Source of the DNA: an uncultured Bacteroidales bacterium
GTDB taxonomy: Bacteria; Bacteroidota; Bacteroidia; Bacteroidales; Muribaculaceae
NCBI GenBank assembly: GCA_947072905.1
Contig: CAMTKF010000013.1
Location: forward strand, 1-50,539
Direction: 5' to 3'
DNA: 50,539 nt
This document shows, piece by piece, positions 5,487-10,516 of the stretch. A model generated the notes under the pieces. That model saw only the letters and a program-made list of their open reading frames with translations, did no database searches and had not been told where the DNA came from. Position 1 is the first letter of the stretch. Every line of letters starts with the position of its first letter. A program made the translations under genes and the position numbers.

Positions 5487-7148
5487 ATGAAACACACTCT
5501 TACAGTATTTATAGCCATCGTAGTGTTGCTGCTCGCAGCCTGCACCGACACCCTTACGCTCTCGCGCTTGGAGCGGGCACAGAGAGTCATGGACTCGCGT
5601 CCCGACTCGGCCCTCGCCATACTCGACTCCATAAACCCCGACAGCCTGACTTCCACCGAACACAAGGCCCGCTACGCCGTGCTTGCCGCGCAGGCATCAT
5701 TCAAAAACAAAATAATACCCACCGACGATTCACTGCTCCGAATAGCCGTTGACTACTACAAGGGTCTCGGCGACAGCGCCGAGATGAAGGCACTGTTCTA
5801 TATGGGCAACGTGCGCTACTACTGTGGCTTCTACGCATCGGCAATAGTCCCGGCCATGCACGCCCGCGAGCTGGCCATAAAGCTTGGCGACGACTACTGG
5901 CGCGCCAAAAGCGCCGAAATGCTTGCAGATATATTTATGGCAACACATTACGATGATACGGAAATACGTAAAGAGGCTGTAGAATACTACCTTAAGGCAG
6001 GCAAGATTCCCAACCATCGCTATGCCATCTGCGATTTGGCTACAAGCTACGGCCAATTCAGAGATTACGACCGGGCATTTCATCTTCTCGACAGTATTGC
6101 CAAGATTGCAAAGAGCGAAGATCCTGTAGATACGGGTTTGTTGAGCTATTGTTATGACCCTTTAATGAGTTTTTACGTTAAAACAAACAGATTTGAAGAA
6201 GCCCGCCAAATAAGCACTGTACTTGACAGCATTTCAGACCGCAGATTTTGGACTGCGGTCGACTACGCTTATCGTGCCCGTATGGAGTCTAATTTAGGGG
6301 ATTATACCAAAGCCAAACTTGATTTGGATTCAGCTCGTTCCATTGCTGTGAAAATTTCAGATTATCTCCTGATAAATCTTGCCTATAAGGACTATTACCA
6401 GACACAAAATTTACTCAACGAGGCAATTGCTTACTGCGATTCTATGGTTGACAATATTTATGATGAAACCGGTACAACTTTAAGCCAGTCTGTGATAACG
6501 GTTCAACGAGATTATTATAATGAGTTATCCGAAAAAGAAGCGCGTTTTTCCAATACGCTCAGAATTTTTATAATTATACTCTCTTCCGTACTCGTTTTGT
6601 TGCTTGTTGCGATGTTTGTCATTTACAGACAGAGAATAAGGATTAAGAATAACGAACTTGATTTAAAAATCAAAGATATATCCACTCTAAAAGCAGAACT
6701 TGAGAACCATAAGAAAGCTCAACAGGAATATTCATCTTTTATTGACGATTTGCTTATAGATCGCCTTGGATTGCTTGATAAACTTTGCAATCAGTATTTT
6801 GAGAACCAAAATAACGACAAGTCAACAGTTATAACCGGGAAAAAGATTGAAAATGAAATAGCCAATTTGCGCAGCCGATACTGCATGGAAGAGATAAGCA
6901 GACTGTTGAGTCCTTCAGATAATGCCATGATTGAGAAGTTGACGGAACAATGCCCGTTCCTCAAAGATGGCGATATACACTTTATTTCTTTCCTCATGGT
7001 AGGGCTTTCGGCAAAAGCCACTTCGATACTGATGGATGTCAGTCTTAAAAATTTCTATACCAAGCGTGCGCGTATAGTAGAACGCATACGCAAAAGTGAT
7101 GCTCCTGACAAGGACATGTTCATTTCAAAAATAATGAATTTGGAATAA
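5487..7148 (+). CDS. Membrane-anchored TPR regulator with C-terminal HTH-like domain
   Basis: The start at 5487 gives a lipoprotein-type signal ending in LLLAAC (Cys19). The 553-residue protein then has helical TPR-like repeats (about 25-350), one transmembrane helix (about 360-385), a coiled coil (about 385-430) and a C-terminal region (about 480-540). That region resembles the LuxR-type helix-turn-helix of this common Bacteroidales family: LSAKATSILMDVSLKNFYTKRARIVERI. An outside sensor linked to an inner DNA-binding part is inferred, not shown. The first 450 bases are GC-rich like dagK; from about 5935 the codons become AT-rich and stay so through the next four genes. This suggests a recombination join inside the gene. 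It probably regulates the protease islet that follows. Confidence 0.72.
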   Translation: MKHTLTVFIAIVVLLLAACTDTLTLSRLERAQRVMDSRPDSALAILDSINPDSLTSTEHKARYAVLAAQASFKNKIIPTDDSLLRIAVDYYKGLGDSAEMKALFYMGNVRYYCGFYASAIVPAMHARELAIKLGDDYWRAKSAEMLADIFMATHYDDTEIRKEAVEYYLKAGKIPNHRYAICDLATSYGQFRDYDRAFHLLDSIAKIAKSEDPVDTGLLSYCYDPLMSFYVKTNRFEEARQISTVLDSISDRRFWTAVDYAYRARMESNLGDYTKAKLDLDSARSIAVKISDYLLINLAYKDYYQTQNLLNEAIAYCDSMVDNIYDETGTTLSQSVITVQRDYYNELSEKEARFSNTLRIFIIILSSVLVLLLVAMFVIYRQRIRIKNNELDLKIKDISTLKAELENHKKAQQEYSSFIDDLLIDRLGLLDKLCNQYFENQNNDKSTVITGKKIENEIANLRSRYCMEEISRLLSPSDNAMIEKLTEQCPFLKDGDIHFISFLMVGLSAKATSILMDVSLKNFYTKRARIVERIRKSDAPDKDMFISKIMNLE

Positions 7149-7166
7149 CCCTCCCCCTGTTTTTTT

Positions 7167-7250
7167 AATTCTACAAAGCCCCTTAAGGGTTTTAAAAGGC
7201 GCCTGAAAATCAAGCATTTATAAAGTGTAGAATTTTTAAACAATTCTACA
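7167..7250. promoter_or_regulatory. TGTAGAATT operator-like sites
   Basis: TGTAGAATT (7226-7234) and AATTCTACA (7242-7250) form a perfect 9-base inverted repeat with a 7-base spacer. A third half-site AATTCTACA stands at 7167-7175. The sites lie between the regulator gene and the promoter of the protease cassette, a natural place for an operator. They could equally be an RNA hairpin. Confidence 0.45.
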
Positions 7251-7317
7251 GAGCGTAACCTTTTGAATATCAGTGTGTTGTAAAACGAGTGTAGACTAAA
7301 AATAATTGCATTTTTGC

Positions 7318-7348
7318 TTGGATTTTCAATGTTCAAGGCTTAATTTTG
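7318..7348 (+). promoter_or_regulatory. Promoter of the C10 protease cassette
   Basis: TTG (7318-7320), 20 bases, then TAATTTTG (7341-7348). The start codon of the first small gene is at 7374, giving a leader of roughly 20 bases. Confidence 0.65.
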
Positions 7349-7373
7349 CGAGTGAAATCAATAATTATCCATT

Positions 7374-7739
7374 ATGATAAAAAAATTCATTTTACTCGTT
7401 TTCTTAATGCTGAGTGTGCCTTTTGGCATTATGGCTGACGCCCCGGCTAATGATGGTGGTGGCAAGCCTGTTGATATTAAGGATGTTCGTAATAAAGGTA
7501 TAGGACGCCCGCAGAAGCCCTCATCTCAGTTTATAGACTGTATGTATAGTGACGGCAGTCTGTATGTCAGCTTCCGCAATCCCGAGGGAATGTGCGAACT
7601 CACCGTTACCACCGATGATGATGTGGCTACATATATGTTTGACACCTCCACCTCGGCCGAAATCCATATCGGAGAACACCCCGCAGCCCACCTCCTTCTA
7701 ACCACCGAGTATGGCCATAGCTACCAAGGCGATATATAA
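7374..7739 (+). CDS. Small secreted DUF3244-like protein
   Basis: A 121-residue protein with a signal peptide (residues 1-21, ending in IMADA). Its second half has a beta-strand pattern resembling DUF3244 domain proteins of Bacteroides: SLYVSFRNPEG, then a middle strand pair, then a C-terminal tyrosine-rich HSYQGDI. Function is not established. It stands first in the cassette, 36 bases before a C10 protease. In streptococci and Bacteroides, C10 proteases are often encoded beside small proteins that resemble propeptides or inhibitors, so an inhibitor or chaperone role is an inference worth testing. Composition is mixed, more GC-rich at the 3' end than the protease. Confidence 0.65.
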   Translation: MIKKFILLVFLMLSVPFGIMADAPANDGGGKPVDIKDVRNKGIGRPQKPSSQFIDCMYSDGSLYVSFRNPEGMCELTVTTDDDVATYMFDTSTSAEIHIGEHPAAHLLLTTEYGHSYQGDI

Positions 7740-7751
7740 ACATAACCCAAT

Positions 7752-7767
7752 TATAAACCAAAAAATC
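7752..7767 (+). promoter_or_regulatory. Repeated A-rich translation leader (first copy)
   Basis: TATAAACCAAAAAATC lies exactly 8 bases before the protease start. An identical copy at 9135-9150 lies exactly 8 bases before the next gene. Bacteroidales use A-rich leaders rather than strong Shine-Dalgarno sites, so this is probably a duplicated initiation region. Confidence 0.55.
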
Positions 7768-7775
7768 TAAAAGTC

Positions 7776-9044
7776 ATGAAACAATCATTATTTAACGTTG
7801 TAGTTCTTGCAATATTTGCAATGTTATTTACATCATGTGGTAACGAAGGTGAACTTCTTAAAGACGAAGTTCACGAACCGATGACAAAAGCAAGTTGCAT
7901 TACCCCTGAACAGGCTAAGCAGACTGTGCTCTCTTTTCTCGAAGCTTTTGAAAAAGCTTCATCTCCCAATGCGAGAGGTGAAAACTATAAGCGTAGAGAA
8001 ATTTTAGATGTAAAGGCTGTCTCAAAAGAAGCTTTTGCTGAAATCAGTCGTTCATCACAACTTCCTGATACACTATTCTATATCATTAACTTCGCAGACA
8101 GTGCCGGCTATGCGGTTGCAGGGGCGCAGCCGGGTATGGAGCCGTTGTATGCCCTTGTTGATAACGGTAATGCTGACGCAAGTACTTTGGGTTTGGGTGA
8201 TTCAGGTTCAGATCCAAACGAGTTCCTTTATTGGAAAGACGCAATATTTGAATGGGAAAATGGAGGGAAGCCACAGTATCCGGCTCCGGATACTGTAATA
8301 GGTAAATGGGCTATTTACTCCATAATCACACCTCAAATTGACACTAAATGGGGACAGGGAAGAAATCAGGATACATCGTATGGTAAGTATTTCAAGAATA
8401 GACTAACCGGATGCACCATTATTGCAGCTGCCCAATTATTATACCATTATAGCTTGCCGCAAACGATTGATTGGACCGATGAAAATGGAAGAGATATGTT
8501 AATAAATATGTATTGGGAAACTATAAAAATGAATAATAAGGCGTTCGGAGGTAGTTTGGATACAGGTGCTACACCAAGTCATCTTGATAAGGTGGCTAAG
8601 TTATGCAGAACTATTGGCTTGGATGTCAAGGCTGATGACAGTGCTGAAGATAAGACAACTGCAAATTCGGATAAGGTGTTAAATTGGCTTAGAACAAAGG
8701 CCGGATTAAATGCTCCAAAGCTTGGTGATTATAGTGAAGATAAGATAATACAAGCAGCCAAGGATAGCAAGCCTGTATATATTAGAGCTGAAAATAAAGC
8801 CGGAACCGGTCATGCATGGGTAATTGACGGCTATATTTCCGGTTATTGTAATGGATATAAAACCATGTTTTATTGTAATTGGGGTTTTCACGGAGACAAG
8901 AATGGTTATTATGTAAGTAAAGTCTTTAATGCCAATAATCAACCTGAATTGACTGAAGAAGATGTTAAGGCACGAGGGGCAGATAAGGATTTAAACTTTT
9001 ACAGAAATTATAAAATTTCAATTATGCCCCCAAAAAATGACTGA
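7776..9044 (+). CDS. C10 family cysteine protease (streptopain-like) lipoprotein
   Basis: A 422-residue lipoprotein (FTSC lipobox, Cys21), so probably membrane-attached and exported. An N-terminal propeptide-like region spans about 35-175, as in SpeB-type zymogens. The catalytic domain carries Cys213 in TGCTIIAAAQLLYHY and His346 in GTGHAWVIDGY. Trp369 in YCNWGFHG matches the conserved Trp of streptopain. These match the catalytic positions of family C10, so the enzyme looks intact. C10 enzymes of gut Bacteroides are secreted endopeptidases that can act on host or microbial proteins; the substrate here is unknown. AT-rich codon use differs from the flanking housekeeping genes and suggests transfer. 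It follows the DUF3244-like gene and precedes two lipoprotein genes. Confidence 0.85.
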   Translation: MKQSLFNVVVLAIFAMLFTSCGNEGELLKDEVHEPMTKASCITPEQAKQTVLSFLEAFEKASSPNARGENYKRREILDVKAVSKEAFAEISRSSQLPDTLFYIINFADSAGYAVAGAQPGMEPLYALVDNGNADASTLGLGDSGSDPNEFLYWKDAIFEWENGGKPQYPAPDTVIGKWAIYSIITPQIDTKWGQGRNQDTSYGKYFKNRLTGCTIIAAAQLLYHYSLPQTIDWTDENGRDMLINMYWETIKMNNKAFGGSLDTGATPSHLDKVAKLCRTIGLDVKADDSAEDKTTANSDKVLNWLRTKAGLNAPKLGDYSEDKIIQAAKDSKPVYIRAENKAGTGHAWVIDGYISGYCNGYKTMFYCNWGFHGDKNGYYVSKVFNANNQPELTEEDVKARGADKDLNFYRNYKISIMPPKND

Positions 9045-9055
9045 AGATTTTTAAG

Positions 9056-9123
9056 TTCAAATAACTTTGGTTATCTTTGCGATGAGTTCTGTAACCAAAG
9101 TAATTTAACCAAAGTTATTTGAA
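9056..9123. repeat. Perfect 18-base inverted repeat between protease and lipoprotein genes
   Basis: TTCAAATAACTTTGGTTA (9056-9073) is the exact reverse complement of 9106-9123, with a 32-base spacer. The spacer holds a third copy of the core, TAACCAAAGT (9092-9101). A TAnnTTTG-like box (TATCTTTG, 9072-9079) starts at the end of the left arm, but I see no -33 box at the right distance. It may be an operator, an attenuator hairpin or a remnant of a small element. Confidence 0.75.
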
Positions 9124-9158
9124 ATTCCACGAAATATAAACCAAAAAATCAACAAGCA

Positions 9159-9944
9159 ATGAAAATTAAAAAACTGTTCTTTTATTTGATGATTTTTGTC
9201 GGGATGGTTCTTGTCGGAGGATGTTCTGACGATGAACCGAGTTCAGAAACCAAACAGTACGTTATAGACACGGATTTCATAAATATGCTGAAGCAGGATG
9301 GAACAGCGCAATCTTTCTGTCTGACCGGTCGAAATAATGAGCTGTTATCAGGTCAAACACCAAATAAGTATAATGTTCCGTTTGATTCAGTGGTACATAG
9401 AGGTTTGTCTGACTTTATGTCAGAGGATTTTACTGACAACATATACTTTAAGGACGGAAAAATCCTGCGGCAGCTTCCGCTCTTAACTAAAGAAAAAGGT
9501 TTTTTCCCTGTATATGAAATATATATGGCTAATGGTTTGATAACAGATTACGTTCCTGTAATATACATAAAGAAGGATTTTAGCTACGATGAAGAAGACT
9601 CGATTTTTAAATATGACGGCAATGTGTATAAAGTTATGTCTTTCAACAAAAATAATATAACTCTAATTCACGACGTCAAGAAGTCGAATAACTCTATGAT
9701 GAGACAAAGTTTGGAATTTAGCCGTCGTATCCCTAAAAATTTTGAACTTTCATATATAGTTATCTTGGAAAGCAACTATGATGGCTATCGTCTAATTGCA
9801 GATGAAGCAAGAAAAACTTTTGGCAGATACCTAAATCTCAACAAGGTGTATGAATTCAGAGGAATGGATAAACGCGAATCTACTGATTCAATAATAGACC
9901 TCGATGCATTTGATGCATGGATTGAAACACAGAAATCTAATTAA
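9159..9944 (+). CDS. Lipoprotein of unknown function in the C10 islet
   Basis: I do not recognise this 261-residue protein. It begins with a lipoprotein signal (LVGGC, Cys22) followed by an acidic stretch, which often accompanies surface-exposed lipoproteins in Bacteroidales. The rest is mixed alpha/beta with no repeats or obvious catalytic motif. It shares the 16-base leader of the C10 protease gene and follows it by 114 bases. It is AT-rich like the protease. A role as a protease inhibitor, target or partner is suggested only by position. Confidence 0.7.
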   Translation: MKIKKLFFYLMIFVGMVLVGGCSDDEPSSETKQYVIDTDFINMLKQDGTAQSFCLTGRNNELLSGQTPNKYNVPFDSVVHRGLSDFMSEDFTDNIYFKDGKILRQLPLLTKEKGFFPVYEIYMANGLITDYVPVIYIKKDFSYDEEDSIFKYDGNVYKVMSFNKNNITLIHDVKKSNNSMMRQSLEFSRRIPKNFELSYIVILESNYDGYRLIADEARKTFGRYLNLNKVYEFRGMDKRESTDSIIDLDAFDAWIETQKSN

Positions 9945-9954
9945 TATATCAATT

Positions 9955-10452
9955 ATGAACAAATACAGAATCTTTTTTATTTCAATTCTCTGCATACTCT
10001 GCGGAATAATAGTTTCGTGTTCAGAAGACGAATATATCGAAACTGATTATACTCCTGTAGGCTTTAGTTTTAAAATAGTGTCGGCTGACGGTACCGATTT
10101 GCTTGCCGATGGGCAAAGCTTGCATGGCGCTGACTTCTCGGTGATCTATGAAGGAGAGGAGTATAAGGCTGATTGGCGCCACAGACGGATGTATTTGCCA
10201 CATCTTTACGGTCTTAGATATAGTATATATGAAGATAATCCTGTGCTGTTGTTTGGAGAATTTGATGGTTACCGTAGCGAAGTAGACTTCGTTTTTAAAA
10301 TGCCAAACGGAGAAAGTCATAATATCTATTTAAACCGCAGACATGGGAAAAACGATAAAGTAAAGCAAATAGTCAAACTTGATGGTAAAGAAGTGTCTGA
10401 AATGTCAGACGGGCGTATTGATATAGAATTCACTTTCGTTTATCAGGAATAA
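9955..10452 (+). CDS. Small lipoprotein of unknown function in the C10 islet
   Basis: The ATG at 9955, 10 bases after the preceding stop, gives a 165-residue protein with a clean lipoprotein signal (IIVSC, Cys21). An in-frame alternative start upstream would add a charged segment before the signal and overlap the previous gene, so I reject it. The mature part looks beta-rich, ending in DGRIDIEFTFVYQE, with no motif I recognise. A small beta-sandwich lipoprotein after a C10 protease could be a Spi- or staphostatin-like inhibitor; this is conjecture. A terminator-like hairpin follows. Confidence 0.7.
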   Translation: MNKYRIFFISILCILCGIIVSCSEDEYIETDYTPVGFSFKIVSADGTDLLADGQSLHGADFSVIYEGEEYKADWRHRRMYLPHLYGLRYSIYEDNPVLLFGEFDGYRSEVDFVFKMPNGESHNIYLNRRHGKNDKVKQIVKLDGKEVSEMSDGRIDIEFTFVYQE

Positions 10453-10476
10453 AGACCAGGTCCGGTGTCATACAAG

Positions 10477-10516
10477 CTGCCGGGGATGCTGCGCTGAGGG
10501 CGTGCATTCCCGGCAG
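10477..10516 (+). terminator. Hairpin ending the C10 islet
   Basis: CTGCCGGGGATGC (10477-10489) pairs with GCATTCCCGGCAG (10504-10516), 13 bases with one G-T pair and a 14-base loop. The T tract after it is poor, so termination efficiency is uncertain. It marks the right edge of the AT-rich islet. Confidence 0.55.

Follow-up and report, generated by a model that had tools for sequence, protein, structure and literature searches.

The window analysed here is the whole of contig CAMTKF010000013.1 (50,539 nucleotides), one entire contig of the 2.69 Mb genome of an uncultured bacterium of the Muribaculaceae (Bacteroidales; assembly GCA_947072905.1). Between positions 5487 and 10452 lie five genes, which encode a membrane regulator (regA), a small secreted protein (smallB), a short C10 cysteine protease and two lipoproteins of unnamed families (lipoD and lipoE; Table 1). 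An original prediction, made from the DNA alone, had described them as a regulated protease-inhibitor islet set between housekeeping genes. We found all five open reading frames in place on the + strand, those of regA and lipoE starting at an ATG internal to a longer listed frame, and the predicted setting was confirmed by Pfam, which identified a gene for a YegS-type lipid kinase (PF00781) on one flank and relA/spoT on the other. The gene order of the cassette recurs in related genomes, which disfavours a chance clustering of five genes.

Table 1. Genes and other features of the C10 locus
Feature	Position	Strand	Description
regA, 553 aa	5487-7148	+	Lipobox, TPR-type sensor, one membrane helix, coiled coil, C-terminal helix-turn-helix
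TAATTTTG, -7 promoter box	7341-7348	+	5' of smallB; TAnnTTTG pattern
smallB, 121 aa, secreted	7374-7739	+	Non-lipoprotein signal peptide, read from sequence
Short C10 cysteine protease lipoprotein with I69 prodomain	7776-9044	+	Pfam, PDB match, catalytic residues
Inverted repeat	9053-9126		21-nt arms, 32-nt spacer; two -7-like boxes at 9062 and 9072
lipoD, 261-aa lipoprotein	9159-9944	+	C-SDDE surface-type start; unnamed family
lipoE, 165-aa lipoprotein	9955-10452	+	C-SEDE surface-type start; unnamed family, FGEFDG-like motif
Hairpin 3' of lipoE	10477-10516		13-nt arms; weak terminator candidate

The C10 protease and its lipoprotein neighbours

The protease matched Peptidase_C10 (PF01640) with 83.6 bits (curated cut-off 26) and Inhibitor_I69 with 31 bits (cut-off 25), and interpain A was its PDB match (E value 2.6e-6). 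It retains Cys213, His346, Asn368 and Trp369, that is, the catalytic Cys and His and the NWG motif. The claim of an intact C10 lipoprotein was thus upheld, and the sequence is that of a lipoprotein zymogen with its prodomain. Five C10 matches were found in this genome, that of the window being the weakest. Among homologues elsewhere, two short C10 proteins (L072:4817-6166 and L040:5314-6570) carry another residue at the catalytic Cys column, and in L072 the catalytic His column is also replaced; both copies are likely inactive. At L328:3187-3651, a 154-aa lipoprotein immediately 5' of a serpin gene consists of the C10 prodomain alone; it may be a C10 that has been truncated or, in the manner of Spi, a prodomain standing by itself.

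After their lipidated Cys, lipoD (C-SDDE) and lipoE (C-SEDE) fit the S(D/E)3 motif, which marks vesicle-enriched, probably surface-exposed lipoproteins of Bacteroides (PMC6222051). Both are accordingly predicted to be surface-exported. The signal peptide of the protease also closes with a lipobox, and its mature start (C-GNEGE) is acidic and lies outside the motif. As originally proposed, both partners are unknown lipoproteins: neither lipoD nor lipoE fell into a Pfam family, alone or with relatives. A loose BLAST grouped lipoD with serpins, but its family has no Pfam serpin match, and lipoE has no match to serpin PF00079. The lipoprotein model NigD1/NigD2 was touched by 5 of 25 lipoE members (best E 2e-4), weakly and at the signal peptide in the case of the window. 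Searches against Pfam (E up to 1) returned no I69 match for lipoD, lipoE or smallB. An iterated lipoE profile did catch the prodomain fragment L073, but the overlap consisted of the signal peptide plus drift; L073 was excluded from the lipoE rows, and we rejected lipoE as a copy of the C10 prodomain. Staphostatin was absent from the PDB profile matches of lipoD, lipoE and smallB.

Partners downstream of short C10 genes

Among genomes of the source family, the Muribaculaceae, 144 of 198 (own included) had a C10 match. Short open C10 frames were chosen among the matches listed, and 38 regions were fetched, one of them a lipoD region. These hold 39 short C10 genes once fragments of a single gene are merged, including three broken genes (L054, first copy; L061; L071), the prodomain-only L073 and the near-identical pair L044/L049; one gene has no room downstream, leaving 38. 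A same-strand gene follows within 250 bp in 36 of the 38, within 40 bp in 30, and it is lipoprotein-like in 35 (some signals called by eye). The neighbour is a serpin in 17/38 cases, as against 0/25 for a control of long C10 genes with a called neighbour, and a lipoprotein-type signal combined with a gap of at most 60 bp was seen in 30/38 short versus 2/25 long C10 genes. Serpins were identified by Pfam for three proteins and by a profile built from those three for the remainder; by eye, most of the C10-linked ones keep an inhibitory-type hinge. The contrast between short and long C10 genes is strong within these top-ranked loci, and we conclude that short C10 proteases usually come with a downstream partner lipoprotein, often a serpin.

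A tree was built from 50 short C10 proteins, with near-copies removed and labels corrected; many of its branches are weak. Partner types mapped onto it required 16 changes, whereas shuffling them gave a mean of 23.1, and none of 200 shuffles was as low (an earlier tree with near-copies and uncorrected labels gave 16 against 26.4). Partners therefore track the protease lineage, yet were exchanged many times. Such clustering, together with the adjacency and the like export signals, would also suit helpers of C10, in which lipoD and lipoE act as folding aids, surface docking proteins or substrate-binding adaptors complexed with the active enzyme. We consider this improbable: the same slot is filled by serpins, which are inhibitors by fold, and unrelated families swap in it.

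Of 397 family genomes, the own one among them, 23 contained lipoE by a single-sequence search. L126 and L127 failed as members once signal peptides were cut off, and L057 was dropped from the partner counts after the same check. Among the 22 remaining non-window loci, five (L104, L117, L119, L122 and L125) have a same-strand C10 no more than four genes away. For 5 of 23 lipoE loci with C10, p is about 2e-7 under a chance rate of 0.6% that is a guess rather than a measurement. Beside C10, lipoE also occurs in tandem arrays of three (L104:1157-3229) and five copies (L119:969-5685). A scan of named genomes gave six lipoE loci, five of them already included above. In the new one, L224, a 125-aa protein is encoded between regA and C10 and a 162-aa protein between C10 and lipoE; at L124, lipoE stands with regA alone.

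The link was also approached from the opposite side, by picking short C10 loci on C10 alone in 149 genomes of the order, which gave 14 regions, 13 of them in other families. With signal peptides cut, lipoE is the next gene in 6/13 of these (L281, L282, L284, L285, L288 and L289); with signal peptides retained, a lipoE-family gene follows in 8/13. These six are not independent events, since four of their C10 proteins fall in one supported clade and two are too short for the tree. At L286 the next gene is a serpin. On a Parabacteroides distasonis plasmid, a gap of 21 bp separates C10 from a downstream lipoE-family gene whose annotation is hypothetical. On a Bacteroides uniformis plasmid (L292:2734-4698), next to a conjugation gene, a small lipoprotein gene lies 6 bp downstream of C10. 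From these gene neighbourhoods, lipoE appears clearly linked to C10 and is the stronger candidate partner.

The association of lipoD appears moderate and weaker. A profile search found it in 21 of 397 family genomes; eight further genomes (29 tallied) matched only near the signal-peptide end, over at most 96 columns, and were left uncounted, and a 192-aa protein at L052, which owed its lipoD label to the same end, was likewise not counted. Removal of the signal peptides cost none of the 25 members examined its place in the family. C10 lies directly upstream in 4/22 loci (the window; L071, which is the same as L162, the seed; L170; L178), and at L190 lipoD stands directly behind regA-smallB. 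The other lipoD loci have neither C10 nor regA-smallB within the 1500 bp covered on each side.

The same partners could instead leave C10 alone and guard the cell surface, and the protease, against proteases of the host or of neighbours, the serpins being aimed at trypsin- or elastase-like serine proteases. Serpins chiefly target serine proteases and some papain-like enzymes (PMC8233489, PMC8201313). At L054, L061 and L071, where C10 is split by a stop or a frame change, the downstream serpin or lipoD is still open; both lipoE and lipoD are found without C10; and the window's own genome yielded a single serpin, which sits in a unit without C10. This guarding role nevertheless seems somewhat doubtful to us, because lipoE recurs beside short C10 genes of other families and long C10 genes have no serpins. 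The recount with signal peptides cut, from 8/13 to 6/13, slightly raised its standing and slightly lowered that of a role in restraining C10.

The regA-smallB module

The membrane helix, coiled coil and helix-turn-helix of regA were assigned by reading the sequence; its matches to DUF6377 and BT3442_fam are both under cut-off. Of 198 family genomes (own included), 55 encode relatives of smallB, and regA adjoins smallB in 26 of 30 smallB loci listed, in four of them divergently. The label DUF3244-like that smallB had received was not supported: there was no match to DUF3244 (PF11589), either alone or with six relatives, and no match to any other Pfam family (E up to 1 alone, up to 0.5 with the six relatives). 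Its best PDB match had an E value of 0.45.

The original prediction had also put smallB forward as a candidate C10 inhibitor, which would make it the counterpart of Bfi1A or BtiZ, both encoded near a protease gene. Its size of 121 aa and its position 36 bp upstream of C10 are comparable to the size and gap of Bfi proteins (116-138 aa, within 35 bp of the protease gene; PMC2873492) and to the position of btiZ, which ends 14 bp upstream of btpZ (PMC3462683). However, C10 is the next gene after smallB in only 9/30 loci listed, window included. Nine other followers (next or next-but-one) were scanned with Pfam and comprised C13, C25, radical SAM, DUF4848 and LRR proteins and four without a match; another locus carries a serpin. 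We conclude that smallB is not C10-specific, and since it belongs to a regulator module that precedes many non-C10 genes, a specific inhibitor of C10 is very unlikely to be its role. The simplest view is of regA-smallB as a regulator module with changeable cargo.

Several individual loci illustrate the range of this cargo. The module precedes a legumain-like C13 peptidase at L206:1-1456 and a gingipain-like C25 peptidase at L209:1913-3372, and at L219:1-1389 the gene behind it resembles the start of an Rhs/SpvB-type protein (by-eye reading; no Pfam match). The own genome has a second unit, on contig C11 (L327:1678-5446), with the serpin as cargo and no C10 alongside.

The spacers of the module share a promoter box. 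Among 29 distinct spacers between regA and smallB, 25 have the pattern TAnnTTTG, presumably the Bacteroidetes-type -7 element, 24-45 bp before the start of smallB, with 26 boxes in the 638 bases at these positions versus 4 in 6344 other bases. A TGTAGA repeat in the spacer at 7149-7373 was discarded as a regA operator, being present, on either strand, in 4/29 spacers. Two -7-like boxes also lie within the inverted repeat between C10 and lipoD, so lipoD and lipoE may have their own promoter; the repeat could possibly be an operator plus a second promoter for the pair. As a mobile element it was rejected, with a single match in its own genome.

A cassette with a candidate restraint on its protease

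Our preferred reading, held tentatively and at a little under even confidence, is a regulated protease cassette in which lipoE, and probably lipoD, restrain C10 or protect the producing cell. The prodomain zymogen, the lipoprotein signals, the gene order and the promoter box are read from the sequence, and from them we infer the following course. RegA would sense a periplasmic or surface signal and switch the promoter of smallB and C10; smallB would belong to the regulator module, perhaps as a ligand of regA or as an accessory to it in the periplasm, and would not be an inhibitor of C10. The protease would be displayed on the cell surface and mature there. LipoE, and probably lipoD, as surface lipoproteins, would bind and restrain mature C10 or shield the producer, doing the job that serpins and other lipoproteins may do beside other short C10 proteases. 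Of the originally proposed regulated islet, the C10 unit behind a regulator and the C10-linked downstream lipoproteins thus stand, and the case for smallB as the inhibitor is weakened. The suggestion of lipoD and lipoE as inhibitor, immunity or target-binding proteins holds insofar as both are C10-linked families in a slot that serpins also fill, and is weakened by their occurrence without C10.

A number of observations weigh against this cassette reading. The original prediction had named wide occurrence of the small genes without any C10 protease as refuting its islet, and this was half borne out: 17 of the 22 confirmed non-window lipoE loci have no C10 within four genes, and 18 of the 22 lipoD loci, window included, have none beside lipoD (1500 bp on each side). 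In the window lipoD begins 114 bp after C10, and co-transcription of the two is unsure because this gap holds the inverted repeat and the promoter-like boxes. Among the short C10 genes, L055 and L069 have no partner, and both short and long C10 loci were taken from the top of ranked lists rather than at random. In the other families, L280 was not confirmed as lipoE without its signal peptide and L287 is borderline (E 0.002); most of the distant lipoE members needed profile iteration to appear, and without it only the match of L289 spans the greater part of the protein (E 3e-4), those of L284 and L288 covering a part. The small gene of the B. uniformis plasmid matches lipoE only with the signal peptide included. 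Neither partner had a significant PDB match (best E 0.046 over 21 positions for lipoD, 0.29 for lipoE), and the structure model of lipoE, built with six relatives, had a predicted local distance difference test (pLDDT) score of 45.7 and was unusable. Profiles of lipoD and lipoE align with C10 at the signal peptide only, with no likeness to the prodomain. Binding and inhibition of C10 by either protein are inferred.

Known pairs offer the closest analogies, and by comparison with SpeB-Spi, Bfp-Bfi and Btp-Bti, the place of the inhibitor is probably taken here by lipoE and lipoD. Several C10 protease-inhibitor pairs of Bacteroides are co-transcribed (PMC2873492, PMC3462683). Like the window, the Bfp-Bfi and Btp-Bti systems (Thornton 2010, 2012) combine a C10 lipoprotein zymogen with a small adjacent partner gene, in part encoding a lipoprotein; the window differs in its two larger lipoproteins downstream, its regA-smallB upstream and the swapping of serpins into the slot, and the likeness of lipoD and lipoE to Bfi and Bti was judged from descriptions of the pairs. 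By the Bfi criterion of about 35 bp, smallB lies near the limit at 36 bp upstream, lipoD farther off downstream, and lipoE one gene further. In Streptococcus pyogenes, SpeB likewise lies beside an inhibitor gene, Spi, and an I69 domain is present; in the window, however, I69 is the protease's own prodomain, and lipoD and lipoE are no prodomain copies. Miropin of Tannerella forsythia is a Bacteroidales serpin that inhibits proteases, the kind of protein that fills the downstream slot in 17/38 loci, but lipoD and lipoE lack its serpin match. Miropin is a lipoprotein. In the KLIKK protease-potempin pairs of Tannerella, a secreted protease is followed by an inhibitory lipoprotein; these belong to other protease families and resemble the window in layout.

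In the literature searched on C10 proteases, serpins and Bacteroidales inhibitors, we found no description of C10-serpin operons or of the regA-smallB module. Three points seem to be new: serpins and unnamed lipoproteins replace one another at a single position, lipoE is linked to C10 beyond the family, and one regulator module is shared. Early work on C10 proteases treated them as virulence factors, yet they are common in gut commensals. Should the short ones have exchangeable lipoproteins as their inhibitors, there would be a target to test for two unnamed families and for a set of serpins, and regA-smallB, if the reading is true, would be a general handle on the timing of secreted cysteine peptidase release in gut Bacteroidales. 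A more far-reaching version, to which we assign only a slim chance, treats short C10 proteases as surface weapons with lipoprotein immunity: lipoE-type genes, which in places are tandem and often lack a protease, would form a reservoir of orphan immunity or inhibitor genes against the C10 of neighbours, some pairs being plasmid-borne, and regA-smallB would load C10, C13, C25 or serpins into one regulatory frame. A C10 cluster of Bacteroides thetaiotaomicron is induced in co-culture with Akkermansia, for which its authors suggest mucus degradation or preying on that competitor (PMC8264420).

Some minor features concern the origin and limits of the unit. A phage origin of C10 was rejected, with no C10 match in phage records, and a pattern search of viral contigs with one relative gave no match. 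None of the islet genes was found when 29 loci of the same genus were inspected upstream of relA, over no more than 1500 bp per locus and a shorter span where the contig ended. A hairpin had been said to close the unit; it is present downstream of lipoE, though weak as a terminator. Guanine-cytosine (GC) content is 31-43% in the intervals covering 6001-10500 versus 52-62% in most flanking intervals. Within regA it drops from 57% (5487-5920) to 39% (5921-7148), as though an acquired block had its left boundary inside the gene.

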